Source: Clitopilus passeckerianus
Taxonomy: Eukaryota > Basidiomycota > Agaricomycetes > Agaricales > Entolomataceae
Assembly (NCBI GenBank): GCA_944990035.1
Contig: CALYLX010000035.1
Location: 124,001 to 188,000 of the forward strand
Reading direction: 5' to 3'
Length of the DNA stretch: 64,000 nt
The translations under genes were made by a program, and so were the position numbers. Shown here one piece after another: positions 3,601 through 44,032 of this stretch. The notes beneath the pieces were generated by a model. The model was not told the DNA's origin. It worked only from the letters and a program-made list of their open reading frames with translations, and did not search any database. Position 1 is the stretch's first letter. Every line of letters begins with the position of its first letter.

Positions 3601-5912
3601 TCAACGTCTCCGCTTCTGATTACTGTTATCAGCAGCTTGCTTCAATTCCTTCTTCCCGCCGGTGCGAGCCTTGACCACAGACGCTGGCTTAACCATCTGT
3701 GGGTGGGGTGCATCGTTAGGTACCGACTTCGCCATGGAACGAGTGGTGCGTTGAGAGCCAGAAGCGTTGACGGGGGTTGGTGGAGAATCGACTTCGCGAC
3801 CTCGCTTCTTTGAGTTGCCGCGGAGGGGTTTGGGTGGTGCTGTACTAACGTCGTACATGTCTGCCTGTGTTGTAGCTGACAGTTCATCAGCATGTCCATC
3901 CCAGGGTGTTGGAGGTGCATCAAATCCGGATGGGAGGCTGAAGTATTGTTGATTCAACGAAAGAGAGAACGTAGATGGTGGACGCCGCTCAGGGCAAACA
4001 ATCTCTCCACCCCGGAGTTCCCATCCCTCAATGAATGTCTTGAGGTTGCGGACCCCGTGTTTCTACAAGAAGAAAGTCAGATTTGGTGGGAGCGGCCCTT
4101 GATTATGGCTTCACACCTGTAAGTACGCTAGGATAATTTTAATTCCACCATCACTTGAGAGCCACTCCTCGCGCAACGATTTCTCAAGCCCTTGGCAATT
4201 TCGTTCCACCCCAAAATGTGCTGAGTTCGCGCTACGAACATAATCTGCGAACATTTCCTCGTCTTCTCCGATCAAAGCTGTCAACCCTTTGACAAAACCT
4301 TGAGGTGGAGAAAGTTTGTCACCATTGAGGTGCACAAGTAGGTCAAGTGTGAACCCGTCAGCCACATACCCTAGCTCGGCCCCCAAATCTGGTTGTAGAG
4401 ACTGTATAAAAACATGCTTCAACCAAATTGGCAGAAGCCGAGAAACTGCCGCATCCTTCTCAACACAGAAAGAGCCAGATCGGGACCGGTTTGTAAGGAA
4501 TTCGCTGAATGAGGCATGGATGAATCGAATAGGAGCCTCCTTCGATGGGTTTTCGGAGGGAATCTCTAGGATTGAGTGGAGATCGACAAGGTGAGTGTAC
4601 GTAAGAGATCCAGAAGGTAGGAAGAAGTAGCGTTCCAAGGAGACAGGGGACAGGGAATTGCAGTCGACAAACATCCCCCGTGGATCTAGAAATCGTGGGT
4701 AGCACATTATCTCAAAGATGGTGTGAACAACGGGAAGTGACTCTGGCACCACTGAGCGCATGATGAGCATATACAATGCATCAAGCTCAGCAAATGGTGA
4801 ATCTTTTGCGTCTGTTATGGTTTGAATGTTCAAGATGGCTTCGAGAGAGGCTCTGGGGTCCTGTCGAGGACGCTTCAAATATCGGGCTGCGGTGGAAGCG
4901 TAAATGAAGTGACCAGAGGATTTCTGGATAAGTGTGGTAATAGTGCCTTCTGGTGGCCATGATGAATCTCGGAGATAGGGGTGGTTGTGTCGGAGCTCAT
5001 CGAAGCTGCAATTGAGGAATAGTTCGATATCGGCGTTTGGGTTTTGCGTATCATCCAAGGCAATGGTGCGTGTTAAATTTGTGAGGGGGATACACGAGAA
5101 ACTGTTGCGAATTTGGTGTTCCGGGCGGCTGGCAACAAGGAAGCGAATCGGACAATTGGCCTGGCTTGCATAGAATGTGATTGCCTCGAGTATCTCGCGC
5201 TGCTGAGCCTCGTGGTCCTTCCCAGTGATTTTCTGACAGCACTCATCCAACCCGTCTATCACGACAACCTGTTGCCCCAAACCGCCCTCTGAACCTGCGG
5301 CGGTTAGTGGTTGAATAATGAGCTCCTCCATCTGATGCGAGAGGCCTTTTCTGAATAGGCCCATGTCCTTGAGAATCGCGTGTTCTATGTGTGGCCGAGT
5401 TGACGGGATAGATAGCGTAAGTTGGTACGCAAGTGTCGGAATGAGATGGGTGTTCTCGTTGCGACCGGCCGCGGTTCGTGAAAAGAAAAAACTGGCCGCC
5501 AAAATCTTCAGCCTTGCCCATCGTTCTGCAGATGTCTGCGCTATGGCGGATTTCCCCGCCCCCATTGCGCCGCGCAGCCACATGATAGGCTTCGAGGAGT
5601 CATCAAGCCCTTGAGCCCAACGATCGATGCTGCCTAGGACAGCTTTTCGGGTATCTTTATGACATTTTGGAGGGTCAAAGCGTTCGTCGGAGTTGAATAA
5701 AGCTCCAAATGCGACATGGTTTTCAAGGATTTCCATAGCATCTGCAGATTCGTGAGCTGACGCCGATCTGTGGTAAGGCTCAACTTACCTTTGGGCGGAA
5801 CTTGGTTTTGCGTAATGTGGAGATTCATATCCCGCGAACTCGTAAGCGTGGAACCTTGGACGTTGAGGTTGCCATTGATTCCCTTGTTGCGGTCGTCCTC
5901 TGGCGGCTGCAT
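3601..5912 (-). CDS. NAC1: NACHT-domain STAND NTPase with basic C-terminal tail
   Basis: Predicted NLR-like STAND P-loop NTPase, about 736 aa, from three exons: 5912-5789, 5741-4117 and 4062-3601. The introns are 47 nt (GTAAGT..CTGCAG) and 54 nt (GTGTGA..TTGTAG); phases match. Residues 15-35 hold the shared motif (VQGSTLTSSRDMNLHITQN). Walker A is GAMGAGKS near residues 99-106 and Walker B is VVVIDGLDE near 200-208, followed by RFLVASRPEHQI. The rest of exon 2 is the helical region common in basidiomycete NACHT proteins (LVDLHSILEIPSE, RFIHASFSEFLTNRSRSGSF). No ankyrin, WD40, TPR or LRR repeats are visible. Exon 3 encodes a 153-aa tail (EGWELRGGEIVCPERR; PPTPWDGHADELSATTQ) ending in basic clusters (NSKKRGRE; GGKKELKQ; QKRRR), like a bipartite nuclear signal. 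ATP binding and oligomerisation are family knowledge; the ligand is unknown. Confidence 0.9.
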
Positions 5913-8622
5913 TGGTAAAAGTACAAGGACAAGGAACTCGGCGCCTATTCACAGGATTGCCTACCCTTGACACCTGCCACGAGGCAACCATGCACAGGTA
6001 ACCGTGATCACGTTGTGGTTAGGAATGTAAGAAGTTTACTAGATACAGACGCCGACAAAAACATTTAAACAAGTGCAGGTTTCGTAGTAAGCAAAGGTCC
6101 CGTCGAGCTAATGCTAAGATGTGAACGTGCTGAGTAGGCGAACATGACGTGCATCCTAATCCACAGGTCTATCGATCTTCACCAACACAGCACCCTCTTC
6201 CGATGACTATAAACCCCAAGCCCAACCCTCTCGGACTTCCCAGCCTCTTCGTGTAGTGCCCTTTGCACAAGTGCATGTCAGCATCAGCGTCGATATCCTG
6301 GTTCTTCATGCGGTATTATCTCCTTCTCTGCCTCCATAGGTAGACGGAGATCCGCGAAATACTTGGCTGCTGGGGAAAGCAAGGGCATCGAGGGTACCGT
6401 CAGGGATAAGCTGTGGGCTCGTGGATGGAGGACTGACATGAGGGGAGCCAGGGAAAACGCATCCGACGGTATGCTCCAACCAACGGGCAAGAGCTTCGAG
6501 GTGTTGAGGTGGGTTGGGGGTGCTCGTTGATTGCTGTATCTGTCGTACCCGCTACCCCTCCGTTGAAACGACCCAATTGAGGTGCCTTCTCGTTGTCTGC
6601 GTGGCGGTAGTCACAAGTTCCTTATCCTCCCGAATGACCGAAGCTTGATGTCGGCCAGACACGAAAATCTGACCTGGAGGCTGTTGCTGCACCGGAACAG
6701 AAGGCGAGAACTGGCCAGAACGAAAATAACGGGGTCTTGTGTTTGCAACCCCACGTGTCATTTCCGTGGGTCGAGATTGGTACGCCCTTCTTGTGGCTGG
6801 AAGGGTGTGCACGGGCCGGAAGAATCTCATAGCGAGCGGGAGGTGCCAGCCGAAATCCTGTTGTAGCTTCACGATCTATTCCGCTGAATGGCCGTGGGTT
6901 AACATTGGTAGACGGAAAAAGCGGGATAAACTTACGGTAAGGCACCTCCTCCTTTCCTTCCGTCGCTCCTTCTGACTTCCCTTCCGTATGTCGCCTGTCA
7001 CTAGTCATAGCGCATATGGTTGCGGAAACCTATCCACCAAAGTCATTGATTAGCCTACTTGTCTAAGAGTCGGAGAAGAGGATGAAAACCGTACCTAGAC
7101 CGTCACTGCATCATCCCAGATTGAAGCTCTCTTGGGCAACCTTCACCAAATATGGGATGACGTGCATTCAGAAGGCGCCGAGGGAGAAAATGGGGCGGGA
7201 AGAGACACGAGAACTGATTGGTAGTTGAAGAGAGGGGAAGGGTTGATGGGCAAGGATACGCCGCTTGATGGTGGGTGTCGGGAGGGGACGCTGGTGTTGG
7301 TGGTGGGGGAAATATTTGGTGTCGAGTTTGATTGCCAGGATTCTTGCGTCAGGTGGAACAGACGACGAGGTTACTGATATAGACGGTCGGGAGCCAGAGG
7401 ATGGGCAACTTGAAGGGGTTGGCGCTGAGTTCAATAGCTTGTGTTTCCTGCGACAGACGGGGGTATTGGCAAGCAAAATCTTGTAGCTGATCCATTGTTG
7501 AATAACGCGGTAACAACCGTGAATAGACGAGGGGGCAGGAGCTGCGAGAAGCCTTCTGTGCTGCAGCCGATAGCTGGGAACGTGCTTCGATGGCGTTCCT
7601 CCTTCTCTACGTAGTGCTTGCAGTCGACAGTGTACAGAAGAAGCCGGGCGTCCCTGCCTGGTGGCGTAAGAGACGTCGGGTTGGATACGTGTTGCGAGCG
7701 CCTGGTGCAGGCATGCCTATCATCACATAGCTGGTACACTTCAGCTTTTGTTGATAACGCCTAAATACGCAGAATTGAGTAGAGAGAGCAAGGAAAGATG
7801 CAAGGGCGTACCTTTGTCGACATTCCTTCTTGATTTCTTCATCCAGGAAGATCGGGTGTGTTAGGGAGAGGGGTTCACGAAGGAGAACGTTATGCAGGTC
7901 ACGACTTCGTAATACCAGCTCGAAGTGCTACAGCGGTTAGAAGCCAAGGTAGGATGCCGACGGCAAGGTGGGCGACAAAGACGTCATCCACTGGTACCAG
8001 GTAAGTGAGTGAGCTTTATGGAGCCGCATGCTACACGATAAGTCAGTATTAGATGAAGTCGACGTTGCATGTAATGCGCACCAAGGGTGTGGTGGATCTT
8101 GCAATAGAAGGCCATACATTGGTTGTGGCAGCCCACTCCACTGCTCAGATTACATCGTATTAAGGGAACTGAGTCTTCGACGCATGAAAACGTGAAGCTA
8201 GTTGAGAATGTAGTGGTAGGAGGCGTGTTGTTGCGGAAAATGAACTTTGCAGTCGAATTCGAGTTTTGGTGGAAACTTTCATCGGGTGTTTTGAACCGGA
8301 TGTCTTGGGACGAGGGAGAGGTATGTTCAGAATCCAGCGCTGGATGGGAGAAGGTGTCGAAGAGTTGAAGATGATACGTAAGGTTCTATTGCAAATCATG
8401 GATCGTGAGCGTGAGCCCATGAGAGCAACATCCGAGGAAAAAGACGTACCATCCAGAATCATCTCTTCCTTCCGCAGAAAGCGCGCAAAGATCTGCAGTT
8501 TGAAGCACAAGTTTCAGCCGCCCAGGATACATCAAGCTTTAGGTTAAGGAGCGGAGAGATAGATCAGAAGGTGAGGAGGAATTCAGCAAACTGAGGAAAA
8601 CGAGCTTGGGAAATAGTTGGAG
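5913..8622. repeat. NAC1 5' flank and spacer repeat copy S1
   Basis: About 300 bp of NACHT upstream sequence is followed by the spacer block, a diverged repeat recurring after each NACHT unit. A landmark is AGCGAGCGGGAGGTGCCAGC at 6831-6850, matched with few changes near 12071, 20051, 26168, 32542 and 38862. On the minus strand, short stretches keep a frame between copies (for example DLHNVLLREPLSLTHPIFLDE near 7.9 kb), with splice-like borders, but stops and frameshifts break every copy. It is either a decayed multi-exon gene read right to left or a non-coding repeat. No intact product can be proposed. Confidence 0.6.
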
Positions 8623-8680
8623 CACGTGAGCCTGTTTGGTGGGCGCTTGTGGTCTAGGGTTAGGAGTTCGAAAGGCGCTC
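8623..8680. promoter_or_regulatory. CACGTG box plus conserved ~40-nt module (copy at S1)
   Basis: CACGTG at 8623-8628; 18 nt from its first base the element 8641-8680 begins, with core TGGTCTAGGGTTAGGAGTTC flanked by GCGC-type ends (GGGCGCT..AGGCGCTC). This is the reference copy: all parts are present and the spacing equals that at 13.85 and 34.31 kb. Confidence 0.55.
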
Positions 8681-10199
8681 TGATCAAATGAAGCTGTTCG
8701 ATCTATTCAAACTATCCTAACTAGCTCATCTCTCTCATCCACCCTCTCCATTCTACTATAGCATCGTCAGCACTGGGTACCGGGTAACCGAGGACTTTTA
8801 AGGCAAGACAGAGGAGCAGCGAGGACCGGGATGTTGAAAGTCGCTCTGGATCGTTGTTCTTCCTTTCTCAACTGTTCTCACTATTCTACCTATCTCATGT
8901 TCTTCAGCTCCGCCCACACGGAAGTACCACGCCCGCCCATACTCCATCCTAGTACCCTCGATACTGTGCTACCGAGGAGTAGGCTCAAGACTGGAAGCTG
9001 GCGCTCCGAACGCCGAACGACATTGAACCTGGAACAAGGGGTGACGGACGCACAGACACCTCGAAAGCAACAGAAGGAGCAAAAAACGGGCTCGTAGAAT
9101 TTGGAGTCTTCTTCCCCATGAACATCCTTCTCCGAAAGATTGGTCTAACGATTATTTTCAGTACACATCCTTTCGCCCATCCGCATCTCGATTCTATAGC
9201 TATCAAGAGGGCCAGACTTCGAATTTTCTGACTCAGTCTCTTCGATGACTGGTTCCTGTTTAACCTTCTGCGCGCTCCAGGCTGCATCCTGTGATTGCTT
9301 GTCGCTCTGAAAGCCGCTACTTATTGCGGTTCTGTTCCCACTATAAAGGAGACAGAAATCTCCTGTCGTTGAACCTACTCATATGCAGTAGGAACGTAGC
9401 TGCCGACACCGGATGGCTATTGATTAATACCACGGCTTCTCTCCTTTGCTCTGTTACCGTCATCCTAATCTCTCGCGAGGCTGTAGCATCAACTCGCCGT
9501 CGTCGTTTTCATAGACTGTGTTCCCCTCTTCAAGCTTCAAGGTGTACCTGTCGAATGCGAACATCCTACAGACTTTTTTACCTGCTTATCAGCGTCGAAC
9601 ATAACACGTTGGGATAGCTTCTTGATGTTCATGTATGGCTTTGTGCGTTCCGATGCTAAGGCAAACGACGGTTCTTTCTGTTTTAACTATCTATCTGATC
9701 CATACTATACTTGGGCTGCCGACGTTCTACTCTAGTTCTATGAAGGCACGAAATGAAAGGAAGTGCGGAGGAAGTGAAGAAGGCGGAGCCCTGATGGCCG
9801 TAACGCCATTACATATTCTCAGGACAGTGCTGCCCATAATACCCACATCAAAACGCCGAATTGACCACAATGCTACTTACGGTACTCACTTGGTCCTACT
9901 CGACTCGACAATTTGAAGAACTACCAGTGCTTTCTCAGTAGCCCCTTCGGTACCAGACACGGCCGCGTGCCATCACACGTGAGCTTTACCAATGGCCTCC
10001 TAATCGATCTGGATGTGGGCTTTTGAATAAGAACCGTATGAGCTTAAAAGCATCCACCCCTTCATCCACCCGCCCCCTCCACTCTCCATGGGTCCGTTGG
10101 GTTCTCTCTGTAGGTCACCTAGTCGTAATGCATGGAGTTGCAAGAACCGATCTATCAAAATCTTTAATCAATCTCCTTGTCTTGGATTCGTCGCAGATG
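8681..10199. other. Interval without a recognisable gene
   Basis: No supported gene. Open frames here are short and show no domain. It contains pyrimidine-rich runs of the kind also found 3' of other modules (CTATTC/CTAACT repeats near 8.7 and 8.9 kb). A NACHT gene would be expected here by the unit layout but none is present. Confidence 0.5.
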
Positions 10200-10990
10200 A
10201 GGAAAATCATACCCAAGAACCAGTCATAATTCGTCATCTTAAATTGAGGTTCTCTCCCAGGCGACCTTCACCCCATGTTCTGAACCGAATATCTGGCGGG
10301 AGATCATGGCGGCGTGTGTTCTGAAGACGCAGAGTCGAAGATGGGTCGTGAAGTTGAGATACCGAAGAGACGCTCGAGGAGAGAGGAAGGGTTGATCGAC
10401 CGGTTCAGGACTTGATGTTGTGCGAATGAGAACGGGGGCGTTGATTTTGGGTAAAGGGAGATCGTGTTGTTGGGTCTAATGACCGAGGCCCTCATGTCAG
10501 GTGGGATGCAACGAGCAGCAGCAAAGGTTTTGTTGTCAGATAGGGCAACGACGACCGTGAAACTGCAAGACGGCCTGGGCTCTTCAATGACTCCTAGCGG
10601 TTGCCACCAACTGCGCCCAAACGTTCAGAATCCAAGGCAGCGTAGTTCAGCAAGCTCAGTCAACAGCTACAGAAGACGCCAGATATTCTCCCTTGGCGGC
10701 AGAGAAAGGGTTGAGTTGGGTAGAATGTCGTGAGCAGCGGGTGCGGGTATGCCTGCACAGAGCTGATATAGGTCTGCTTTGGGGTATTGAGACGAGTTTC
10801 GGTCTAAAGACCCCGAATTAGGCTGAGGAGGCGCAGAAAAGTCGGTGAGGAGGACATTCCTTCTTCGAGAATTCCTCGGGATGACGAGAGTAGGACATTC
10901 GGGAGGATGTATCAAAGAGCATTAAGATGACAAGGAATCTATTCCTCAATTATGAGCGAGAGATCTCAGGATGTTGAGAGAAGAACGCAG
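10200..10990. repeat. Partial spacer repeat copy S2
   Basis: Homologous to the central part of the spacers: the order of landmarks (GGCGACCTTCACC, then CGAGGAGAGAGGAAGGGTTGA, then CCTGGGCTCTTCAATGACTC) matches S1, S4 and S6. It lacks the ~40-nt module and is truncated on both sides. Confidence 0.5.
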
Positions 10991-11146
10991 GCGCACCATG
11001 AGTAATCATCCCTCTGTACTTCAGACATGTGCTTGGCATTTCGCAGTTTGGCTACCTTGCAGAATGAGCATACATTAAAGGCTCGTCCCAAAAAGCGGAG
11101 GGGCTGACGTGAAGGTGAGGTTCAAGAGAAAATCAGGAAACATCGT

Positions 11147-11740
11147 ACTCACCACTACCAACCACCCTCTCAACCCCACCCCCATTCTCGCCAATCGCCT
11201 CCTCAACATCCTCCACCATCTCCTTCATCGTTCTATCCCCTTCCCGCGACTTTTGCGACTCCCATAAGCCGCCATAGAGACGAACAAGTCTCGCCATATC
11301 TAAAGAAGAACAGAGTTCAGCTGTTGCGGACCGTGAAGGTGGAATGTTTTGACGGTGATGGAGAGGGATGATGAGTCGGGGTCGAGTTCTTCCTCTTCGT
11401 ATTCCACGTCGCCCATCGTCTTCCACTTCCTTTTCCTCGTCTCTTTCTCTCCCGATCTCGATCTCTCCGTCTTCGTATCTCCCGCCACCCCAGGATCGTC
11501 AGAGTCAAACGGCCCAACCCTCGGCACCCTCAACCTAACCACAATCCTACAATTCACAATCGCACATCCACACCCGCTCCCAGGTCCCATCCCGAACATC
11601 CCACCCCCCGGACTCCCAAGGCCAGGTATATCCAACACCCTCCGTGCCCATCTTAATATCTCCAAAAGACACTCATGTCCTTCTAAATACCTCTCCCGCC
11701 ATACCCATACGCAGACCCATACATCCTCCATCCACTTCGC
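11147..11740 (-). pseudogene. Internal fragment of G1 (exon 2 relic)
   Basis: Near-identical copy of G1 positions about 1836-2418 (most of exon 2, including the GTGAGT donor). It encodes the same KWMEDVWVCVWVWRERYLEG and VPRVGPF segments but carries a TGG to TAG change (G1 SVLLW becomes SVLL-stop) and, further on, a one-base loss in the GKGDRT region. It joins spacer sequence directly at 11741 (TGGGGAAAGC), so it was captured by the array by duplication and then cut off. It cannot encode a G1 protein. Confidence 0.85.
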
Positions 11741-13845
11741 TGGGGAAAGCAATGGCATCGATGGTACCATCGAGAATCAAGGTGGAGGGTCGTAGATAGG
11801 CGGGCTCGCATTAGGGAAGGTTTGGTGGGGACAAAGAAAGCTGCATGGTCATGGTGTGGGAAGTGGTAGGTGCTTCCCCCTTCACGACGCAAGTAAGGTT
11901 GACTTCGGTCAGAAACGAGAGTCTGATGGGGAGACTGCTTGGACGGGGGTCCGGAGTACGAGCTGCTGAGTACCCAGGATGAAAATTACGCAGTCTTATG
12001 GTTGCAGCCGCAAGTCGCGTTTCCGCAAGTTGGGGTTGGTACAGTCTTCTTGTGGCTAGAAGCAGCTTATAGCGAGCGGGATGTGCCAGCATGCCTGGGA
12101 TACGCAAGCCGAAGTCCTGTAGGTGTAGACTTCACGATCTACGCCGTTGAACAACTGCTGGGTGCAACAGATCAGTATTGGGAAGCAGAAAACGCAGGAA
12201 AAGCTTACAATAAGAGCGCTACTCCTCCCGTTGCGCATAGGTTCGTTTGCCTCCTTTCCGTAGGTCAACTACCCATAGTCATAGCACATTGAATCGCAAA
12301 AACTTGTCCTTCAAAGTCGGTGATCAGTCTACTTGTCTTAGACTCAAAGAAGACGATGAAGAACGTACCCAGAAACCATTCGTTATCGCTTCATTACAAA
12401 TTGAGGTCCTCTCCTAGGCACCCATTCCCCGAATAACTCGGCAGTCGAGAGAAGGCGCCAGGTGAAAATGTGTTGTAGAGTTGAAATACAAATGAGACGC
12501 CAGAAAGGACCGCTTGGAGACGAGGGGAGGGGTTGACCGGTGGGTTCTACGACTTGAGGTCGTATGGTCGAAGTAGGAATGGGGCTGTTGATATTGGCAG
12601 TAAGCACCATCTTGATGTTGAGTTCAATGCGCGGGTTTCTTGCGTCAGGCGGAACGGAAGGCGAGCAAGAGCTAAGGGTTGCGGCAGTATTGTTGGGCCT
12701 CTACTCAGAAGGCGAAGGAAGAGAAAATGTACGGAATGTACAGGGAAGGGGCATTGAAGGAGAGGGAGAGGGTTTATCGGCCAGTTTAGGATGTGTCGTT
12801 GGATTGTGAGAGTAGGAAGGGACGTTGATATTGGTGGTAAGGGAGATCTTTGGTGTCCAGTTCGGTGGGGGTGGTTCTTGCTTTAGGGTGGATGGGTGGC
12901 AAGCAACAGCTGGGTGTTGACGATGTTTCGCTGTCGGATGGTGCAGCGACAGCCAGGAAGTACTAGGACGGTAAGAGGTGGACGATGCCATCCGTACTGC
13001 AGCCAGCTACACCCAAAAAGTTCGGGATTTGGGCCAGTATAGTTCTGACAAGAGCAGACGACTGCAATGGTAGTCGACAGCTACAGCAAATGCCGGATAT
13101 CCTCCCCTGGTGACAGAGGAAGGGTTGGGTTGGAGAGAATGTCGTGAGGAGTAGGCTTAGGCGTGCCGTGCCCAGCCCAACGTTCACGAAGCTGATGCAA
13201 ATCGCCTTCACTTCAATGAGAAAAGATTTTGGCCTAAAAACGCTGAATTAGACCGAGGAAGCACGAAAAAGTCGAGCAGGAGGACGTACGCGCTTCAAGG
13301 ATTCTTTTCACGACTGTGCGCATCGTGGCTCTACGTAGACCATGAGAGAGTTACTGTTCACGGCAGGTTGGTTTGATAGTCGTGAGGGCATCGACGTTCC
13401 GAAGCATGCTGATGGCAGCACATCGAGGTATACGAAATCTTGCGGTTCATCCGAGTCTATTAGCAGATGGAGGATAGGGTGGAGGTCGTGCTTTTGCGAC
13501 CAAGACAGGTTTGCGCGAGTGGGAAATACCCGAACCGCAAGCCTCCTACGTTGAGCCTGAGCGTCAAGGCAACCTTCAGCAGGTGTGTTGAACTGTATAT
13601 CTCTAGACTGGGGTGAGTCAAGAATCTATTGCAAATCATGAGCAACAGTCCAAGAGAAGTATGAGAGGTAAAAAAGGACGCACCATCGAAAAACATCCCG
13701 TCTTTCAGCGGAAATCTGCGGTTTGAAGCATTGGTTTCAGCTGCCGGGGATGCATCGAGTTTTAGTCGAAGGAGCGGAGAGATAGACGTGAAGGCGAGGA
13801 GGAACTGAGCGAACTGAGGAAAACGAGCCTGAGAAATAGTTGGAT
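11741..13845. repeat. Spacer repeat copy S3
   Basis: Full-length spacer copy with landmark AGCGAGCGGGATGTGCCAGC at 12071-12090. Its central part appears internally duplicated: two versions of the segment reading T-x-N-I-N-x-P on the minus strand lie near 12.6 and 12.85 kb. No intact reading frame. Confidence 0.55.
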
Positions 13846-13903
13846 CACGTGGGCTTATTTGATGGGCGCTTGTGGTCTAGGGTTAGGAGTTCGAAAGGCG
13901 CTC
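13846..13903. promoter_or_regulatory. CACGTG box plus conserved ~40-nt module (copy at S3)
   Basis: CACGTG at 13846-13851 and the element at 13864-13903, same 18-nt offset and same core as at 8.6 kb (TGGTCTAGGGTTAGGAGTTC). Confidence 0.55.
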
Positions 13904-15549
13904 ACTTCCCTCCCTCACTCAATCAATTCAATCTGGTCTAACTATCTCGATGCAACGGTCTTTCCCTGGCTCTGTTGACCCGCAAGCACAATAGAGAAGC
14001 CTCAAAACTTGCGCGTAGCTCGTCTTCCGGAGAAACTAGAGTGGACTGAGGACCCTTTTCTTCGTGTCCCGACTACCGGACCAGAAGCTTGCTCGTACGT
14101 ATCCTGGATTCATTCCTCGGCAAACGCTGGACTAACGAATCACTTCTATCAGACACTTTCTCCTAAAGTATCGAGTTCGACTTTCCACTATCGTTGTCAA
14201 AATTCATTCCTTCCCCTCATGATCGGCACGCTCCACCTCTGGGCCATTGACAGGGTTGTATGAAATGTATAATTTTATTTGGGGACACCAAGTTCTCCAT
14301 TCGCACGGCGACGAGCTCCCGTGACCTTGGTCCGGCCTCCGATGAGGGAGCAGAATGTCGTTGGACATGTTGCTTGCCTTCAACGCCGGGAGCATGCTCA
14401 GGACACAGACACACCACCCTCCCATACCCTCTCACCTCCCTCATCGCCTTTCAACATCCTCCATTCATCTGGATCTGAGCATCTGGGGAGCAGCCACCAT
14501 ATAGCCCCCTGGAAGGTGTGGCGAGTAAACTAGAGCTACCGGGAGCTCGAGAGACGTTAGATGCAATTGTCCCGGGGAGCATTTTATCACACACCCCGTC
14601 CACCAGCTGCTCAACCGACCACGGCCTCACCGAGTTCTACATGACACTCATCTGCCCCGCCCCCTCCCGCCCCTCCGGGGGTAGTTTTCATCATTGTCCT
14701 TGAGACTTAAGCCGTTGTCCCCTCAAACCCATTCCCGACTTCAGTACCACTCTCGAGTCGGGGTTGAATATCACTCCTTCGACTATTTTTAGAACGACAG
14801 GACCAGCAGCGACATCATTGTCACCCTTCTCTTCACGCTAAGTAGCATTCTATGCTTTGCCTCCTCCGGGATGTCAGGACCGCAAAGACATCTCGCCGAG
14901 TTGCGTCACGCGGTCGCTGCCACTAACATTACCTCCTCGACAACCCCACCGTTAATCCTAGCACTCAGGCAGGCCTCCCAGCGGCTGCATCTTTATTGGT
15001 ATCACCCCACGTCGAGGTTCGGAAGCCCAGAAGCAAGTGCTGTGTGTTTAAGTTCGGCAGTCAATTCGCCGAGCTGCAGTTTTTCTGCTGCTGCCTCGGT
15101 ACTACTAAAGGGAGAGGAGGGTACACAAAGTCCCAGCACGACGACACCGAACAATAATACACCACCTCTCGGATACTTGACGACAACTGCACCCTCGTCG
15201 ATTCCAAGAACTGGAGCCTCCGCCCCAGCTTTCCCGGGTCTTAATAGATGCTTCGCCTCAGGTTGAATGGACCCGCTGTCTAGGCGCTCATGTCGTTGCT
15301 GGTCGGGCATTTGACCGCTGAATGTCGGAAACTGCAATGTTACCAGCACCCGTAACACTGGACCAGGTGTCGGCGTCAGCAATCCCTCCTGGACGTCATC
15401 GCCATTCCTGTGGTCATCGCGGTCTCAGGGGGGATGCTCTGGCCATATCGATGTTAACAAGGGCAAGATAGATCGTTCAGGACAATACAACCGTGTCATG
15501 ATCTCACCCAGCAGTTATCAACTCTGCTCTCCAACCTCGTTCTGCTTTG
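13904..15549. other. Low-copy interval without a recognised gene
   Basis: No supported gene. The longest plus-strand frame (14871-15266) is Thr/Ser/Pro-rich with no domain. I saw no clear similarity to the spacer or NACHT blocks, so this may be an insertion or what remains of a deleted unit. Confidence 0.4.
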
Positions 15550-15960: not shown

Positions 15961-15979
15961 AGGAAGTAGACGCACGAGC

Positions 15980-21399: not shown

Positions 21400-21700
21400 A
21401 ACGTTTTCTTTACCTAACTCTGAATCGCCTAGTATTTTGCTTGATTTCTCTTCGACTTATCAATAACATCGGCTTTCTTTCGGGAGGTCGTAATATAACG
21501 GCAAGAACCTTCGTATCTCGTTATATATCTAAAAAGGAGATAAGGGATCGAGTACGCACCATTGACTTGCTGTTGTCTTCGACTCGGTGTCATTGTCTTT
21601 CAGGAAAAGAAATAGTCGACGATGAACAAACGCTGGTCGGCGATGGTTGGGGACAACCGTCGGAATCCGGAACTGCGAGATCTGTTAGGGCACGTGAGTC
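21400..21700 (-). pseudogene. Second 5'-end fragment of G1
   Basis: Diverged copy of the G1 5' region (TTTCTTTCGGGAGGTCGTAA; CGACTCGGTGTCATTGTCTT; CGCTGGTCGGCGATGGTTGG) ending with CACGTG at 21691-21696. The start codon is lost (CTTTCAGG in place of CTTTCATG on the plus strand), as is the ~40-nt element. Confidence 0.65.
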
Positions 21701-27854: not shown

Positions 27855-27892
27855 CACGTGAGCTTGTTTACTTAGGAGTTAGAAAGGCGCTC
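27855..27892. promoter_or_regulatory. CACGTG box plus truncated module (copy at S5)
   Basis: CACGTG at 27855-27860 followed by a shortened element, TTAGGAGTTAGAAAGGCGCT, that has lost its left half. Confidence 0.4.
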
Positions 27893-34100: not shown

Positions 34101-34309
34101 ATGTAGAAGAAAGAAACACCATAGGTGACCATCTCTCAGTTCTTCAGAAACGAGCTCGACTTTCTGCAGCTTGATACGCAGGTTTCAGCTGCCCTGCGGA
34201 TGGAACATTTGTAAACTTTCCGAAGAGTGGCGAGATGAACGTGAACGTCTTGAAGGCGAGGAACAGGGTCCAGAAAATCTAAGGAATGCCAGTGGGGAAA
34301 CACTTGATG
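31120..34309. repeat. NAC4 5' flank and spacer repeat copy S6
   Basis: Long spacer copy with landmark ATGAGCGGGAGGTGCCAGCA near 32543. On the minus strand it keeps the longest frame-like pieces: RALLYAVEYKHVHLLLELR near 33.2 kb and KLQKVELVSEELRDG near 34.15 kb (compare KIVGHMFEELRDDYYAR in S8). I do not recognise these segments, and stops and missing splice sites prevent a full model. Confidence 0.55.
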
Positions 34310-34367
34310 CACGTGATTTTATTTGGAGGGCGCTTGTGGTCTAGGGTTAGGAGTTGGAAAGGCGCTC
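34310..34367. promoter_or_regulatory. CACGTG box plus conserved ~40-nt module (copy at S6)
   Basis: CACGTG at 34310-34315 and the element at 34328-34367, with the same offset as at 8.6 and 13.9 kb; one base differs in the core (GAGTTGG for GAGTTCG). Confidence 0.55.
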
Positions 34368-35327
34368 AGGCCCAGGATCTACCGCATAAATCTGTTCTTT
34401 CTCATCGACACTCCCGATGAACTGTAGCGAAATATATTCCATCATTGCATGGAAGCATTGGAAGCATTCGGACTGCTGACACCTCGCCATTTCTCCGTCA
34501 ACAACCACAGGCGAATCAACTACTACAACTTCAAGGTCAGCTAAGGCCCCGGGCCGGGGACGCTTGAAGGGATGAAACGGAAGGAGGTGGGGACGATGGA
34601 GGCTTGGTAGTACTGGGTATGCTTACGCTCTCAAATGTGGAGCTCCTTCCACGTAGGACTCTTCTCCCATTGGCACGCCTCTGCTCGATTCCAGCTGTAA
34701 CCGGTCCACCTCCAAATCCGAGTCTGAATCGTCTTAAGGGTCCCTATCTCTCTTGCACAATATCTCTTGCTTGCCCTCGATAGGAACCACTGCACACTCT
34801 ATCTGGACCTCGTCTACCTACTGACGGCTTTAGCACCAAGCTCCTGCCCAAGCTCACCTCCACGCCAAAAAAGACGGCACCAAGAAGACGAACCCTAATT
34901 CTATCGCTACCTGCTGGTGGCCAACAATCACGATGAATCTCTTCCCTCTCACGACTATCCTAACTGTTAAGTACTTCAACTAGACTATCGACGCTCTGGA
35001 CCGCCCATTGGGACAATGCATTGGCCAACGTTCAACTACGGGTCGCCAAAACAGGGCCGGAATTCCGAACAATGGTGATGGAAAGGAATAGAAGGGGTGG
35101 GAAAGGGATTGATTCAGGTATTTTCTGTTTCATAAACGTCTCCCGCTGAACAATTGGCCTAATGACGATGATAAAATTTCCGGTTTGTTAAAAAGGCTAT
35201 GGCGCTAAATCCTCATTCCAACTCAGCGCTACGCCTATCGAAAATACCGTATGGATTTGGAAACTTGTAATAACATGTTACAGGTATATGATGCAAACGA
35301 AATGATGTTAAGATAGTCCAAGGACAG
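34368..35327. other. Interval downstream of NAC5 without a recognised gene
   Basis: No gene supported. The part from 35160 matches the NAC3 3' flank; the rest shows no repeats or domains that I can name. Confidence 0.45.
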
Positions 35328-37407
35328 TCAGTCAAAATCCAGAACGCCTTCATCCTCATCTGCGGTGAGGTATTCTAGTTCTTCATCCTCTGAACCATAT
35401 TCTTGTCCAGCTGAATCCAAATCAACCTGAGAGAAACGATTGTGCAACCCAACGTCAGATGATCTACTTGGTGACTCATTGTGGTGCAAATGGGAGTTTT
35501 GGTCTTGGGTGGCTGATAGCGGCTTGACACCCTCAATGCCATATCTCTATCGGAAGGCAAATCAAATCTGACTCTAAGCACCAACTCTAAAAAACCTCAC
35601 ACACCTTTAAGATCTCCATGATCGTTCCAATGGCGTCTTTGTTCCGAAGGAATCCTTTCACCGCGGACAATAACTGAAATATCTCGGGATTACGTTCCAC
35701 GCCAAAATTGTCCAGACCTATACCGCGAATATAGCGGGCAAACGCTTCCTTGTCTTCTCCGACAAGAGCCGCCAACCCCTCAGCAAAATCTTGAGGTAGA
35801 GAAATTTCATGGCGGTCAAGGTCTATTACTAGCTCAGCTACTAACCCAGACCCCTGATATCCCAACTGCAACCCGAAGTCTGGTTGCAGTGACTGTATTA
35901 AAACATGCCTCAGTCGAATGGACTGAAACCGAGAAAGAGCTTTAGTCTCCTCGATACAGAAAGAGCCGGACCGGGAACGGTCAAGGAGAAACTCGCTAAA
36001 TGATGCATGAATGAAGCGCAAAGGCGCCTGTCTAGCCTGGTATGAAGAACTATCGGCGGTTGGAATTTGTAGGATCGAGTGTAGATCCACAAGGTGATGG
36101 TACGTGAGGCTCCCAGAAGGCAGGAAGAGAAAACGTTCAAAGGAGGTAGGGGCCCTCCCATTGTAGTCCCCAAATAGTCCGAGGTTAAGGTTAAACCGCC
36201 CGGCTCTGAAGCACAAAAGCCCAAAGACGTCGAGAACAATGGGAACTGACTCCGGTAGCACTGAGCGCATGATGAAAAGATACAACGCATCGAGCTCGGC
36301 AAATGGAGCGTCCCTTGCTTTGCTCGAAGGATTAATGCCCAAGATCGATTCTAGGGCCACTCTGGGATCCTGGCGAGGGCGCTCCAGATATCGTGTAGCG
36401 GTGGCAGCGTAAATGAAGTGGCCGGATGATTTCTTGAGGAGCGTGGAAACAGTCCCTTCTGGTGGCCAGGATGATCCGAGGTAGGGGTGGTGTAGTCTAA
36501 GTTCGCCGAACCTGCATTCGAGATACAACTCGATATCGGCGTCGGGGTTCTGCGTGTCATCCAACACGACGGTACGGAGTAAAATGTGAAGAGGAGTGTG
36601 CGAGAAACTGGTACGGATTTGACGTTCTGGGCGACTGGCGACAAGGAAACGCACTGGACAATTGTCCTGGTCAGCGTAAGATGTAATGGCCTGGAGTAAT
36701 TCACGCTGCTGAGACTCGTGATCCTTCCCAACAATGCTCTGGCAGCACTCGTCCAGTCCATCTATCACAATGACTTGTGGCCCCAAACCGGCATCCAAAC
36801 CCGCTGCCTCTAGGGGTTGAATGATAAGCTCCTCCATCTGATACAAGAGTTTCTTTTCAAACAGGCCCACGTCGTTGAGGATGGCATGTTCTATGTATGG
36901 ACGAGTGGATGGAATGGAGAGCGTAAGCTGGTATGCGAGTGTAGGGATGAAGCGAGTGGTTTCATTTCGTCCTATGACAGTTCGAGAGAAGAAAAAGCTG
37001 GCGGCGAGGACCTTCAGCTTTGCCCATTGTTCTGCAGAGGTCTGTGCGATGGCGGACTTCCCCGCCCCCATCGCACCGTGTAGCCACATGATAGGCTTCG
37101 AGGGGTCATCAATGCCTCGCGCCCAGCGATCGATGGCATCCAGAACAGCCTTTCGAGTGTCTGGATGGCATTTGGGAGGATCGAAGCGTTCGTTAGAATT
37201 AAACAGTGCCCCGAAAGCTACATGCCCCTTGAGGATTTCCATGGCATCTGTACATTAATGAGTTACGAATGTAATAGTGGTGTTGCCTTGCGTACCTTTG
37301 GACGGCGGGTGATTCTGGATAACATGGATATTGGTATCTCGTGAGCTTGTGATCGTTGAATGCTGGAAGCGAAGGCTAGGTCCTCCACCATTATGCGAGG
37401 GCTGCAT
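35328..37407 (-). CDS. NAC5: NACHT STAND NTPase with acidic C-terminal tail
   Basis: About 657 aa from exons 37407-37296, 37247-35605 and 35546-35328. The introns are 48 nt (GTACGC..GTACAG) and 58 nt (GTGTGT..CGATAG), all phases consistent. The N-terminal motif is FQHSTITSSRDTNIHVIQN. Walker A is GAMGAGKSAIAQT, Walker B is VIVIDGLDEC, then RFLVASRPERQI. The helical C-terminal half is complete (LVDLHSILQIPTA; RFIHASFSEFLLDRSRSGSF). The 72-aa tail starts Y-G-I-E-G-V-K-P-L and ends EDEELEYLTADEDEGVLDFD, an acidic end homologous to NAC3. No stop or frameshift is visible, so it is likely functional as an NTPase; ligand and partner are unknown. Confidence 0.9.
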
Positions 37408-40400
37408 CGGAAGAAGTGGGAAAGCAAGGTCGCAAACGCTTAGACCTGGAGCACGTCTTTACCTGGTAGTGATGGCGACAAAACAGATTGTACAGTACAA
37501 TGATACGCACATGCTAAAGGAAGAATTACAAGAAGAAGGCGTCTTGGCAAATATAATCAATGATGTCAACAGTGCATGAGACCCAGCTCCTTACAACCAT
37601 CTAAAACTCCCTCTCCCTCTCACAACGATGTTCATCATTCCACCAAGCGATCATTGATCATGCAGTATACGCAGCTCTGTCCGACTGGCGGCGGCGGCAG
37701 CCAGGCAATTATTGAGAGAAAATCAGGATTCTCCTCGACCTCTACCTTGATAAGTCCCTGGGCCTCGGAGACTTTCACCGAAATCATTCTCCACGAATTC
37801 GAATACTGGCGTTATCCCGGGCTGAGAGGAAGTCATCGGCGATTTATGGCCTGAGAGCCCAAAACTCAAAAGATATATATTTTCTCCCAGCCCATCTCAG
37901 ACCACGACAAAGTCCTAGCTCAACGCGACTTCAATCGGTTGAGAACGTTCCCACATCTCCTCACAGTGCTCTCCAGGTCTGCCGCCATAGCAACTTCAAC
38001 TTTCAGCCCAGCGAGAGGCACAGATCACCTGGAAGGCGACCTAACGAAGAACTTGTGCGAGGGGAAGCTGGGGAAACCCGGCCTCCGTGGTAGGTGCTAA
38101 TCACCGTACTCGACATTGCGGGTCTGGCTCTCGAGGTTCCGCATGTGATGCCTTTCCCGCAACGCTATCTTCCAACACCAACCTGGACTCCCCGGCTCCC
38201 CGGCCCGGTCGTCTCTGGGGGTTGAAGTGGGCAACAACATCGTCGGTACCATCAGGGGATAAACTGCAGGGGTCATGGATGGATGGGCTCGCATGAGGCG
38301 AGCCGTTGAAGACACGTCCTAAGGTCCACTCATCCAATCTGATCCAAAACGACTAGTCGGGAAAGTAGGAGTTCAATGCTCCCGAAATTCTGGTGGTAGG
38401 GCGGACGCAGTATTGGCGTTGGAAGCTAGTCCGTGAGGGAGGGCGAGAAGATTGGCCGGGGATTAGAGCAGCGGCATGCTCAAAGAGCGAAAGTGATGGA
38501 TCATTTGGCGATGTTGGAGTAGAATTGGTGAGACTCGTGGATTTGACGAGTATCTTGTACCCGCTGCCCTTCCTTTGACGTGACCTGGCCGGGACGCTTC
38601 CTCGTTGAATGTATGACGATGGTCCTGAATCGATCATCTTCCGATACAATCCAAGTAATCTTGATGCCGTCCAGGCACGAGAATCTGACGCGTACGCTAT
38701 TGGATCTCCTGCAGCTCCCCCACGGACGTCCAGGACACGGGTTGCTGAGCACCAAAAATGAAAAGAACGCGATGTTGCGTTTGCAGCTGCATGCGTCGTT
38801 TTCTTGAGGTTGTCATGGTCTTCTCGTACCTGAAAGGGTGTGCAAGTGCCGAAAAACGCTCAAAACGAGCGACAGGTGCCAGATGCCTGAGGCATGCAGG
38901 CCAAGTTCCTGTAGGCCGCTGGATGCAAAAGATTAGGCTTGGTGGGTAGGAAAGACGGAAGCAACTTACTGCAACAGTCTCTGGTTCTTTCATTCAGTCG
39001 CCCCTTTTGAGGCTGATTGAATTGCACGAACCTATTCATCAGTCATTAATTAGTCTACTTGTCACAATCGGAGAAGATAATGGAAAACATACATGGACCA
39101 GCCGGTTTCTCGTTATCCGAGGTTGAGGTTCTCCTAGGCAACCTTCACCAGATCTTCTACACTGGATACCCCAGGACCAGCGGGATGGTGTGTTCAGAAA
39201 GCGCCGAGGAGAAAATGTTTTGCAGAGTTGAGGTGCGGAAGAGAGGCCAGAAACGGAAGTCAAGGAGAGGGGAAGGCCAGTTTACGACTTAGAGCTGCAT
39301 GATGGTAATGGGAATAACGAGAGTGCTGATATCGGCGGGGAGGGGAATGTTTGGTGTCGATTTCAACGAAGGGGACCCTTGCCGTAGATGAATGGGATGC
39401 CAACCAAAAGCGACGTCTTGCTGAGGTTTTGTTGTTGGATAGTGCAACGATGACCGTGGATTGGTGCAAGGCGGCAGGAGCTGCCGGATAGCTTTCTCGC
39501 TGCAGCCAACAGCCAGGAATTGGGGTCAACCAGATGCTTCCTTCTTCACGCAGGAAGCGGGTGACGGTGCTTGTAGTTGACAGCAAACAGAAGACGCCAG
39601 GTGTCTGCCTCTGTTGGCAGAGGGGGGGTTGAGTCGGGTACGGTGTCGCGGGTAGGAGGTGCAGGATTGCGCATCGTGCATAGAGCCGGTAGGCTTCAGC
39701 TTCGCCACATTAAGATGAAATTTCATGGGGAAGGTCTAAAGATACCGAATTAGGTTGAGGAGGCATAGGAAAGTCCATCAGGACATACCACTGTCGACCA
39801 TTCTTCTCACTCTCGAGCGTACAGCATCCGAGGAAATGAGCTTGGTTAAATTGGGAGGCTGGGGAGAAGGCGATCATGCAGGTCACGACTTTGCGGTATA
39901 CGGCGCGAATTGGCACAGATGGTCAGGACCACGAGGTATTGATGTCAACGGCAATTTGGGCGATAAAGATGTCGACCACCAGTAGCGGGTGATTGTGAGC
40001 TTCCTGGAGCTGTGTGCACCACGATACGCCAGTTGTTGATGAAGTCGAGTTTCAGCGGCATGACCGAAGGGCAGCGCATCAATGGTATGGCGTCTCTTGC
40101 AACAAAAAGCCATAAATTGTCATGGCAGGCCAGGTTGCTTCGTATCAAGAACATTGAATCCTCGACGCAAGAAAACGGCCATGAAACCAGTTGGGAGTTG
40201 GGTGGAGGTCGTGCTGTCGAGGGTTGAACGAGTTTGCGCGAGTGCAAAGCCTCGTATATGGTGGCGGCAGGTGGGTAGCGTCGGGACCAAAACCTTTCCA
40301 CGTCGAATGCGAGTTCGGAGGAATCCTTCACCGGATGTTTTGAACTGGATATCTTGAGACCAGAGAACGGGACGGCGTGCGATCGGAGGACCTTGGAGAG

Positions 40401-40628
40401 CTAGGATGATTCATAATCTATTGCAAATCATGAGCTCGAAAAAAACTCAGGATACTGAGAGAAAGACGCACCGTGCACAATTGAAGCCTCTCAACTCTTC
40501 GCAGATGTGTTAGCATTTGCGTTGTAAAGCACCGGTTTCAGCTGCCCAAGGTGCATCGAGTTTTAGTCCCAAGAGCGGAGAGGAGGAACTCAGGAACTGA
40601 GGAAAACGAGCTTGGGAATTAGCTGGAT
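37408..40628. repeat. NAC5 5' flank and spacer repeat copy S7
   Basis: Spacer copy (landmark near 38862-38880, CGAGCGACAGGTGCCAG). The minus strand holds remnants such as PQFLAVGCSEKAIRQLLPP near 39.5 kb (compare PAIGCSTEGFSQLLPP in S1). No intact gene. Confidence 0.55.
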
Positions 40629-40690
40629 CACGTGTGCTTCCTAGTCTTTATTGGGCGCTTGTGGGCAAGGGTTAGGAATTTGAAAGGCGC
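40629..40690. promoter_or_regulatory. CACGTG box plus conserved module (copy at S7)
   Basis: CACGTG at 40629-40634; element from 40653 to 40690 (GGGCGCTTGTGGGCAAGGGT.. ending GAAAGGCGC). The offset is six bases longer and the core is altered (GGCAAGGGTTAGG). Confidence 0.45.
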
Positions 40691-42051
40691 CCTCTTTCTG
40701 TTCAAACTATTCAAACTATTCAATCTATTGCAACTATCTCATCTATGCTCTCGAGCACCCAAACGCTACCTAAACACCGTCCGCGTCAACAACGAGGAGT
40801 AGGCCTTGGCTTCGAGGGGGGAAATCTTTTCAATTGCTTAGCTGGAATCCTCAGCATCGTTCCAGGCGGACATTTGCTTTGTTCCACCTTCAGTCGTATT
40901 CGTTGGACTATGGTACGCTCGATGGAATTTCAATGATCCTCGTCTACTAGGTTCTAATCTCTTGTTTCCTTATTTCTCTTTTGTAGCTTTCATCTCCGAT
41001 CTCATCATTCGCTCGCTCTATTGAAATCCAACCTCAGATAGGTCCACCCCTCGCAAGACTTTTAGCGTATGTGCTTTACTCAGCAGGAGGGCTCAAGAGC
41101 GAAAATGAAGAAAGTTAAGCAATACCTACGCTGACCATTGTTTTCTATATACCTCATCTACGGTTTCGGCTAGGTTCTTAGTCCGTAACCATGGGCGTTT
41201 TCCTCTATCGCTGTTAGATCTATCCAACGTGGGATGGGTGCAACGGAAGAAGCGAAGGGTATGAAATGGCAAGAACTAGGATCTATGGTGGACTTGAATG
41301 CGTCCGATGGCCCCGAGCCCAATATACTTGCAAATGGCGACTCTTGCGCTCATTATAAAAAGAGGATCGCTCTGTTCTTTGCGTTTTTCTACTTCGACCG
41401 AGAACGTTCTACTCTGGCTCCTCCTCGTACGGCTATGGCTTGAAATAGCAGAGCTTTCTGAACTCTCCCTACGTCTATCTCGCAATTCAGGCTATCCCTA
41501 GTCACCAGGCCTCCGTTCCCAATCTTCTCTCACTGCACTACCCTTTCCGTGAATCGGCTTTTCTGACCTTTTCGTGAGTAAAAACTGCGTATAAGATGCC
41601 AACTTCGGTCTGGGGGCATTTTGTACGCTATCTGCTACACTACCACCTCTTACCGAATTTTTAAAGCATCACGTCCAACAGGGCATGTTCCTGGGAACAC
41701 CTCTACCATGGCAACTTGAGTGGTATACCTCATGAAATGCTACTCTCGTCAACTTCTTCAACGACCTCGGGCGTCAATCTCCCCTTCACATTCCTTCGTT
41801 GTAAGGGCTTCGCCAGACCTTTTTGCTATGTCTGACAAGACGGATATTCGAACCGCTGGAGGACTCTTCTTGAAGTCTGGAGCGAGTGTAACGAACGCCC
41901 TGTGAGGCATCGGGTGTACAATTTACTATTATGATAATTAGAATAACCTAACCTACACGGCCGGTGTCTACGACCAAATCAAACTATTCGAATGGACACG
42001 GATATTGGAACGACAACCTTTGATTGGATCGCATGAATACGTGGAAACATG
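40691..42051. other. Interval downstream of NAC6 without a recognised gene
   Basis: No gene supported. The last ~200 bp match the 3' flanks of NAC1 and NAC2 (basic-tail class). Confidence 0.45.
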
Positions 42052-44032
42052 CTAGTAAGACAACCGGGCATACCCTTTCTCAACGTTTCCTCTTCTTATT
42101 CCTGTTCCGCTCAGGGCAAACAATCTCTCCACCCCGAGTTCATACCCTTCAATGAATGTCTTGAAGTTGCGGACCCCGTGTTCCTACGGAAAGAAAGTCA
42201 GATTTGTCAAGAGCGGAAAATGATCCTGGCTACACACCTTCAAGTATGCTAGGATAACTTCAATTGCAGTTTGATCAGGGATTCTATTATTTTGAAGCAC
42301 ACCTCCAAGCTCCTTGCAATTTCGATCCACCCGATAACAAGCTAAGTTCTCTCTATGAACATGGGCTGCAAACACTTCCTTGTCTGCTTCGATCAAAGCT
42401 GTCAACCCCTCGACAAAACCTTTAGGTGGAGAAGTCCGGACTGCTCTGAGTTCGAAAAGTAAGTTTATTAAGAACCCATTTTTCGCATATCCCTGCTTGC
42501 GTCCAAAATCTGGTTGTAGAGACTGTTTGAAAATGTGCTTCAACCGATTTGAGAGAAACCGAGGAAATGCCGTATCCAGCTTGACACAGAAAGAAGGTCC
42601 GGACCGGGACCGGTTTGTCAGGAATTCACTGAATGAGACATGGATGAACCGAATAGGCGACTTCTTGGATGGAATTTCTGATGGAATTTCAAGGATTGAG
42701 TGTAGATCCACAAGGTAAGTGTACGGGACAGATCCAGAAGGTAGGAAGAGGGAGCGTTCCAAGGAGACAGGGGATAGGTAATGACAGTCAGTAAATAGCT
42801 GTTTTGACCATTGTGATTGTATGCCGGTGAAGCACATAAGCTCAAAGATGCTGAGAACAACGGGACGTGAATCCAGCGCTACCGAGCGGATGATGAGGAG
42901 ATACAATGCATCGAGCTCGGCAAATGGTGACTCCCTCGCATTGATTATGGTGCCAACGTTCAAGATAGCTTCGAGAGCGGCTCTGGGCTCCTGTTGGGGA
43001 CGCTTCAAATATCGGGCTGTGGTGGAAGCGTAAATGAAGTGACCGGAGGATTTCTGGATGAGTGTGGAAATGGTGCCATCAGGCGGCCACGATGAACCGA
43101 GATAAGGGTGGTCGTGTCGAATATCATCGAAGCTGCAATTGAGAAATAACTCGATATCAGCGTTGGGGTTCTGCGTATTATCCAAGGTAATGATGCGAGA
43201 CAAATTGGCTAGGGGGGTACGGGAGAAACTGATGCGAATTTGGTGTTCTGGGCGGCTGGCAACGAGGAAGCGAACCGGACAATCGGGCTGACTAGCGTAC
43301 GATGTGATAGCCTCGAGTATCTCGCGCTGCTGAGCCTCGTGATTCTTCCAAACCCCATCCTGACAGCACTCGTCCAGACCGTCTATCACAACAATTTGTG
43401 GCCCCAACTCGCCATCCGAACCTGCAGCCACTAGTAGTTGAATAATGAGCTCCTCCATCTGATGCAGGAGGCCTTTTTTAAATAGGCCTATGTCCTTGAG
43501 AATCGCGCGTTCTATCTGTGGCTGAGTTGACGGAATAGACAGCGTAAGTTGGTACGCAAGTGTTGGAATGAGATGCGTGCTCTCGTTGCGATCAGCTAGG
43601 GTTTGTGAAAAGAAAAAACTGGCCGCCAGGACCTTCAACCTTGCCCATCGTTCTGCAGATGTCTGCGCTATGGCGGATTTCCCCGCCCCCATTGCACCGC
43701 GCAACCACATGACAGGCTTCGAACGATCACTAAGGCCTTGAGCCCAGCGATCGATGTTCTCTAAGACCGCTTTTCGGGTATCTGGATGGCATTTTGGAGG
43801 GTCAAAGCGTTCGTCGGAGTTGAATAGAGCTCCAAACACAACATGCTCGTTGAGAATTTGCATGGCATCTGCAACTTAGTGAGTCGGCAATGATCGGTGT
43901 GCTGACCTTCAACATACCTTTGGGAGGAGCATGATTTTGGGTAACAGTGATATTTGTATCGCCCAAGGTTGTAACTGTGGAATCTTGGATATGGACCTTG
44001 ATCCCCCTGTGGTCATCCTCCGTGGTTAGCAT
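42052..44032 (-). CDS. NAC6: NACHT STAND NTPase with shortened, frameshifted tail
   Basis: Exons 44032-43918, 43868-42238 and 42183-42052, with introns of 49 nt (GTATGT..TTGCAG) and 54 nt (GTGTGT..CCGTAG). About 625 aa. The N-terminal motif is IQDSTVTTLGDTNITVTQN, Walker A GAMGAGKSAIAQT and Walker B IVVIDGLDEC. The NTPase and helical regions are open throughout. The tail exon opens as in NAC1 (E-H-G-V-R-N-F-K-T-F-I-E-G-Y-E-L), but one G is missing in CACCCCGAG (CACCCCGGAG in NAC1 and NAC2), which shifts the frame. In the unshifted frame the sequence would go straight from C-P-E-R to N-K-K-R-K-R-stop, so most of the tail had also been deleted. As it stands the tail is 43 aa, ends G-Y-A-R-L-S-Y and lacks the terminal basic cluster. 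Confidence 0.85.

Follow-up and report, generated by a model that had tools for sequence, protein, structure and literature searches.

A probably old tandem cluster of NLR-like NACHT genes in Clitopilus passeckerianus, with lesions, copy-number difference and mosaic members

In Clitopilus passeckerianus, the 64,000-nt window analysed here (positions 124001-188000 of contig C35, CALYLX010000035.1; genome of 64.8 Mb in 160 contigs) contains six NACHT/NPHP3_N genes arranged head-to-tail, all on the minus strand, between positions 3601 and 44032. Unless a contig is named, coordinates below are those of the window. The locus displays repeated units, lesions in individual members, a difference in copy number between two matching contigs, C35 and C34, mosaic genes and purifying selection on exon 2. 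We consider it likely that these are NLR-like genes for NACHT STAND ATPases in an old tandem cluster of an agaricomycete, present on two haplotypes, and that the members exchange segments, are lost and signal through a short N-terminal motif.

The repeat unit is a three-exon gene, comprising a short N-terminal motif, a NACHT core exon and a variable charged tail, followed by about 2.3 kb of non-coding spacer. An inspection of the same DNA without database searches, the sequence-only reading, had proposed six paralogous genes in one orientation with units of about 5.9-6.6 kb and an oversized first gap, and this layout is borne out. Exon 2 of copies 1 to 6 starts at 5741, 19017, 24891, 30943, 37247 and 43868, within 2 bp of the positions proposed; the limits of the array (ATG of copy 6 at 44032, stop of copy 1 at 3601) also agree. 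The successive spacings from copy 1 to copy 6 are 13,276, 5,876, 6,050, 6,304 and 6,621 bp. Exon 1 covers 37-41 codons and is separated by a short intron from the NACHT exon of about 1.6 kb, behind which a second GT-AG intron leads to a readable tail exon in five of the six copies; for copy 4 a clear tail exon was not found. In profile searches NPHP3_N lies over the cut-off in all six copies (E 1.8e-19 to 3.2e-24, for copy 4 with the first open reading frame (ORF) of the broken gene) and NACHT in five, copy 4 falling below it with 24.6 bits against 26.7. The residues GxxGxGKS and DGLDE, which we take to be the P-loop and Walker B motifs, show no variation across an alignment of 33 sequences, of which four come from the window, and on this basis the products are predicted NACHT STAND ATPases. 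They have 4,340 NACHT relatives; among the 120 listed, all named organisms are presumably agaricomycete mushrooms.

Colinear repeats extend beyond the NACHT coding parts. Over six non-coding stretches, five intergenic and one upstream of copy 6, 40-76% of the sequence matches another stretch on the same strand, against 0-4% on the opposite strand. The controls gave a single 34-nt match for the reversed sequence and none for positions 48301-64000. A related spacer adjoins every gene, as had been proposed, and six same-strand paralogues with common spacers of this kind constitute an NLR gene cluster.

Intact, damaged and missing members do stand side by side, in line with the sequence-only reading. 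The reading frame is open throughout in copies 1, 3 and 5. In copy 1 (3601..5912) all three exons are open: exon 1 (5912-5789) carries the motif, exon 2 (5741-4117) the NACHT domain and exon 3 (4062-3601) a basic tail with an isoelectric point (pI) of 10.1. Copies 3 (22862..25057; exon 3 at 23206-22862) and 5 (35328..37407; exon 3 at 35546-35328) end in acidic tails of pI 4.1 and 4.2, respectively, and the first intron of copy 3 is a GC-AG intron that can be read through. Copy 2 (16837..19184) is broken by a frameshift near exon-2 codon 444, its exon 3 (17322-16837) still being open and encoding a basic tail, and copy 4 (29295..31119) by an in-frame stop at about exon-2 codon 180. Exons 1 and 2 of copy 6 (42052..44032) are open, and its exon 3 frame differs from that of its C34 counterpart, which leads to a different tail of 43 residues. 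Tails are basic (pI 9.2-10.1) in copies 1 and 2 and in the C34 counterpart of copy 6, and acidic (4.1-4.2) in copies 3 and 5.

The matching contig strengthens this picture. C34 is a separate contig of 1.1 Mb; blocks colinear with C35 flank the array to either side and, array included, run over C35:95.9-198.6 kb. Where C35 has six genes it holds four, on the minus strand, which are the counterparts of copies 2, 3, 5 and 6, and two of them are broken. The copy 2 counterpart (ATG at C34:518482) is interrupted near codon 235, a different site from that in copy 2, and the copy 5 counterpart (ATG at C34:540277) has three in-frame stops, with an unmatched 7.2-kb stretch beginning 0.28 kb upstream of its ATG. 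The copy 3 counterpart (ATG at C34:524490) is open and that of copy 6 (ATG at C34:567762) has a basic tail. A matched copy 1 was not found on C34, and copy 4 is represented there by a remnant alone (C34:536353-536474). Over the wider region, broken loci included, NACHT exon-2 loci number ten on C35 and seven on C34 (the one at C34:474613 from one search only), to which C34 adds three short fragments; the C35 gene at C35:194528 is likewise absent from C34. The "death" side of turnover, that is lesions and losses, is thereby well shown. An isolated NACHT fragment on the plus strand, at C34:491999-492456, is 82% identical to copy 3 at the protein level.

Between 508 and 570 kb, C34 also contains eight stretches longer than 600 nt without a match in C35:84-208 kb, four of which were searched genome-wide, one of these only in part. 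Two are high-copy sequences: a 7.1-kb stretch recurs in ten other places at 99-100% identity (one partial) and a 6.7-kb stretch in twelve other near-full-length places at 92-98%. The third contains a repeat of 490 bp, found nearly complete in 40 further places at 99-100%, and the fourth contains a repeat of about 1 kb with another copy at C34:530267. Judged by copy number alone, these repeats are probably transposable elements. In the C34 counterpart of copy 5, 27 of 54 polarised changes are C>T or G>A (unpolarisable sites were dropped), as against 7 of 30 in its C35 partner (p 0.021) and 65 of 210 in seven other alleles pooled (p 0.011). Its CpG observed/expected ratio is 0.66, compared with 0.76-0.95 in the other 21 sequences. 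These values are suggestive only of a contribution of CpG deamination to the decay of this allele.

Loss is accompanied by mosaicism. In approximately unbiased (AU) tests on 14 sequences, the two parts of exon 2 conflict: data of the 5' part are incompatible with the tree of the 3' part (p 1e-5), as are those of the 3' part with the tree of the 5' part (p 1e-4). Early in exon 2, copy 1 shares 81-87% with copy 3 and 63-66% with copy 2. Beyond a point some 160 nt inside exon 3, its identity to copy 3 is down to 39-46%, the background level, and that to copy 2 is by one count 83-88% over the next 800 nt, by another 83-87% up to about 600 nt further on and then 74%. By these alignments the copies are mosaics, copy 1 appearing as a copy-3/6-like NACHT part joined to a copy-2-like tail. 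Copy 6 and its C34 counterpart are 81-86% identical over roughly the opening 570 nt of exon 2; for the remainder of the exon the figure is 88-97%. The array would thus evolve by loss together with exchange between copies, the latter being absent from the sequence-only reading.

Comparison of non-synonymous (dN) and synonymous (dS) divergence indicates purifying selection on exon 2 taken in its entirety, dN/dS being 0.11-0.41 in 11 pairs. The last quarter of the exon has the highest dN in all eight paralogue pairs and in none of the three matched pairs, and its dN/dS reaches about 0.9-1.0 between copies 1 and 6 and between copies 3 and 6. This pattern would fit an ATP-driven switch whose C-terminal part varies; equally, constraint on that part may simply be relaxed. 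A profile scan that covered ANK, WD, TPR and LRR repeats found none at E<=1 in exon 2 of any copy or in exon 3 of copy 1, and for this reason we call the genes "NLR-like" rather than complete NLRs.

How old are the duplications? In exon 2 the six copies of C35 are 65-81% identical to one another, and the closest copy within the array is a neighbour in one case out of six (copy 2, to copy 1). The matched pairs between C34 and C35 are 83.8% (copy 2), 95.9% (copy 3), 88.0% (copy 5) and 90.4% (copy 6) identical, and in no case does a member of a pair have a closer match among the other copies compared. Since paralogues share 65-81% (dS 0.42-1.17 among open array members) and matched array pairs 84-96% (dS 0.10 and 0.22 for the two open ones), the duplications look older than the split between C34 and C35, and the difference in copy number reads as loss more than gain. 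The array is not a closed group either, because the closest relative of copy 3 is a gene on contig C157. Of the birth-and-death cluster that the sequence-only reading believed to have "caught", the NLR-like tandem array with its losses and lesions is supported; birth in progress is not, no two copies exceeding 81% and matched pairs being closer. Losses and lesions are clear, and recent gain of a NACHT copy was not seen on the two matching contigs compared. An actively growing array, in which recent tandem duplication on this chromosome gave C35 copies that C34 never lost, could draw on the regular 5.9-6.6 kb units, on the dS of 0.42 between copies 1 and 6, close to the largest value for a matched pair (0.39), and on a fragment of the flanking gene in the first gap, whose identity to its C35 neighbour (88.6%) exceeds that of either piece to C34 (82-86%). 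That fragment suggests that at least this 0.6-kb piece was copied or converted on C35 after the split. Against recent birth of the genes themselves speak, besides the identities and dS values just given, spacers that are merely 59-67% alike and the copy 4 remnant kept on C34, and we regard it as unlikely.

As RPB2 also occurs twice, at 96.7% identity, C34 and C35 are probably two haplotypes, which is the likeliest reading. Paralogous segments, or two mixed strains, would account for flank blocks outside the array at 83-94% (rows below 83% dropped), with two further blocks at 72-82%, when RPB2 stands at 96.7%, and for the doubling of one of three PF00562 gene types. Such an origin seems doubtful given the colinear blocks across C35:95.9-198.6 kb, array included, and the fact that near-equal NACHT scores pair C71 with C143, and C36, a contig about as large as C35, with a different part of C34. 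Mis-assembly of the units or of either contig has a possible precedent in contig C138 of the same assembly, with its 100% identical pair 57 kb apart; but the array copies differ by 19-35% and their spacers by 33-41%, far above read error, and C34 is a separate contig of 1.1 Mb with its own insertions, so that an artefact is extremely improbable. The related spacer beside every gene might also be a transposable element by way of which the array arose. However, one spacer (31834-34425 region) has 21 matches in the whole genome, itself included, 19 of which have array orientation and come from the array on C35 or from its equivalent on C34; the remaining pieces, of 39 and 43 nt, lie on the opposite strand next to NACHT genes of the plus strand (C157:293106 and C34:494473). 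Coding periodicity is not seen in the spacers, and we give this origin very little chance. A looser local search added a few further short pieces left of the array, and the spacer family appears essentially confined to the array locus in this genome.

On the favoured reading, that of an old cluster on two haplotypes, the duplications would have arisen by unequal crossing-over, copies would exchange segments via gene conversion or unequal exchange, and members would then be lost by frameshift, stop, deletion or transposon invasion. The proteins would oligomerise upon ligand binding, and the N-terminal motif would relay the signal to a separate effector, probably by amyloid-type templating, with non-self or defence-triggered cell death as the outcome. 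The 37-41 residues of exon 1 contain a conserved motif, seen by eye upstream of 20 of the 24 NACHT exons read, which resembles, short of proof, the amyloid-like motifs of mushroom NLRs. Templating stays conditional because 12 of the 13 peptides aligned carry RD where G[DN] is reported. It is more speculative, and in our opinion rather improbable, that the locus works as a segment-shuffling receptor factory, keeping amyloid-type N-termini and swapping NACHT segments and tails, such that the nuclei of a dikaryon, with unequal repertoires (ten versus seven), would each have their own recognition set.

Several observations weigh against the favoured reading. The dS of copies 1 and 6 (0.42) and that of a matched pair outside the array (0.39) make the two ranges nearly touch, and gene conversion can reset dS, so the age argument is not watertight. 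Two of the three PF00562 gene types were found once each; therefore either phasing is incomplete or the haplotype reading is wrong. GD occurs in copy 6 only, and a single-peptide search for an effector-side copy of the motif gave 14 matches, all 14 of them NACHT first exons. The introns were assigned by eye. Finally, the predicted structure of exon 2 is of low confidence (mean predicted local distance difference test score 73, predicted template-modelling score 0.47), and its best solved matches, which include ORC subunits and NLRP9/NLRP7, have low TM-scores and are weak; the model supports the fold class only.

The oversized first gap had been taken for a double-length one. It is not one plain missing unit, and consists of three successive minus-strand spacer copies (6334..8744, 10066..11140, the latter partial, and 11705..13948) plus the 0.6-kb fragment of the flanking gene (11143..11740, minus strand; 88.6% to 1831-2417). 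A residual NACHT gene was looked for in the gap and rejected: no trace of exon 2 was found (best E 0.14), and the sole strong exon-3 match was copy 2's own exon 3 at the edge of the searched stretch. The C35-only stretch at 13950-15930, searched genome-wide, is unique except for 156 nt. The remaining spacers, on the minus strand as well, lie at 19650..22000 (copies 2/3), 25487..27978 (3/4), 31834..34425 (4/5) and 38220..40760 (5/6), with a partial one at 44780..45904 upstream of copy 6; the figure of 59-67% refers to eight spacer copies. A protein-coding gene in the spacer was rejected, clear three-base periodicity being missing (top chi2 9.7 among many windows) as against 0.16/0.39/0.21 in exon 2, and a Pfam scan of five spacer ORFs and one gap ORF gave no match at E<=0.1.

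The flanking gene itself, an orphan, occupies about 1000..3067 on the minus strand (ATG at 2920) and extends past 1000; a protein search gave one distant match, at 37%. Copies 2 and 3 each have a repeat of its first exon on their downstream side (16138-15974 and 21603-21388, respectively), the second of these relics lying within the spacer between copies 2 and 3. A conserved element of about 40 bp occurs at 3028-3067, 8642-8680, 13865-13904, 34328-34368 (this copy on the minus strand) and 40653-40690, with pairwise identities of 82-90% where the surrounding spacer has about 64%. For copies 1, 5 and 6 the distance downstream to the element is 0.5-1.4 kb, and further occurrences lie close to NACHT genes of C157 and C34. 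A tRNA or known RNA was rejected, ARAGORN (bacterial code) and Rfam giving no hit across the window. Beyond the array, a TAP-like alpha/beta hydrolase ORF (48413-50041) has a partial duplicate at 54736-55402, positions 51751-54010 match two tandem C34 stretches (from 580691 and 583525), and an ankyrin-repeat ORF (57880-58866) lies about 14 kb from copy 6.

NACHT genes are grouped elsewhere in the genome too. At C138:290936-465504 plus-strand NACHT genes follow each other in steps of about 26-31 kb, the last step being 57 kb, and a 3-kb probe recurs at 291.8, 318.0, 345.7, 375.0, 404.2, 434.4 and 461.6 kb, with identities of 81-84% except for two copies 57 kb apart, which are 100% identical; this is a larger tandem array, either partly duplicated recently or mis-assembled. 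Another NACHT trio with a spacing of about 2.25 kb is found on two contigs, at C36:121508-127509 and C34:275939-281947; its middle C34 copy gives a shorter match, with an open frame of 292 amino acids.

Plant NLR clusters are tandem arrays with sequence exchange, pseudogenes and copy-number differences; unlike them, the present genes have NACHT rather than NB-ARC and are without LRR. Mosaic members of plant clusters are mentioned in a study of Sordariales (PMC12258605). In Sordariales, NLR clusters hold two to five NLRs, 16 of 272 consisting of paralogous copies; they share with ours the grouping of NLRs within 40 kb, whereas here six paralogues stand in regular units. Dyrka et al. 2014 (PMC4986451) report 1,589 NACHT hits in 22 agaricomycetes, large families, and birth-and-death as the proposed mode. 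The genes described here likewise encode a NACHT/STAND ATPase of a large family; they differ in the mapped array, the two-contig comparison, the mosaics and the locus-specific spacer, and ANK/WD/TPR repeats were not recognised in them. Compared by description only (PMC9815663), the agaricomycete families NLR05/08/22/29/44 have short, abundant amyloid-like N-termini with a G[DN] bigram; a very short N-terminus before NACHT, many genes per strain and alternating hydrophobic residues are common to both, but our peptides have RD in 12 of 13 and an effector partner was not found. Among the titles listed in a literature search, which include haplotype-resolved mushroom genomes such as PMC12411881, none describes an array of this sort from a mushroom. 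The locus is ordinary in kind, the kind being already known; six regularly spaced copies, mosaic genes and a matching second contig make it an unusually clear member.

The turnover of fungal NLRs has mostly been inferred from repertoire counts. With two matching contigs for a single locus, gene loss, breakage at independent sites, invasion by repeats and segment exchange can be read directly, and the case comes from mushrooms, in which NLR signalling is least understood. The conserved motif, the swapped tails and the open and broken partners offer a test set for receptor signalling and for relating copy differences to compatibility.

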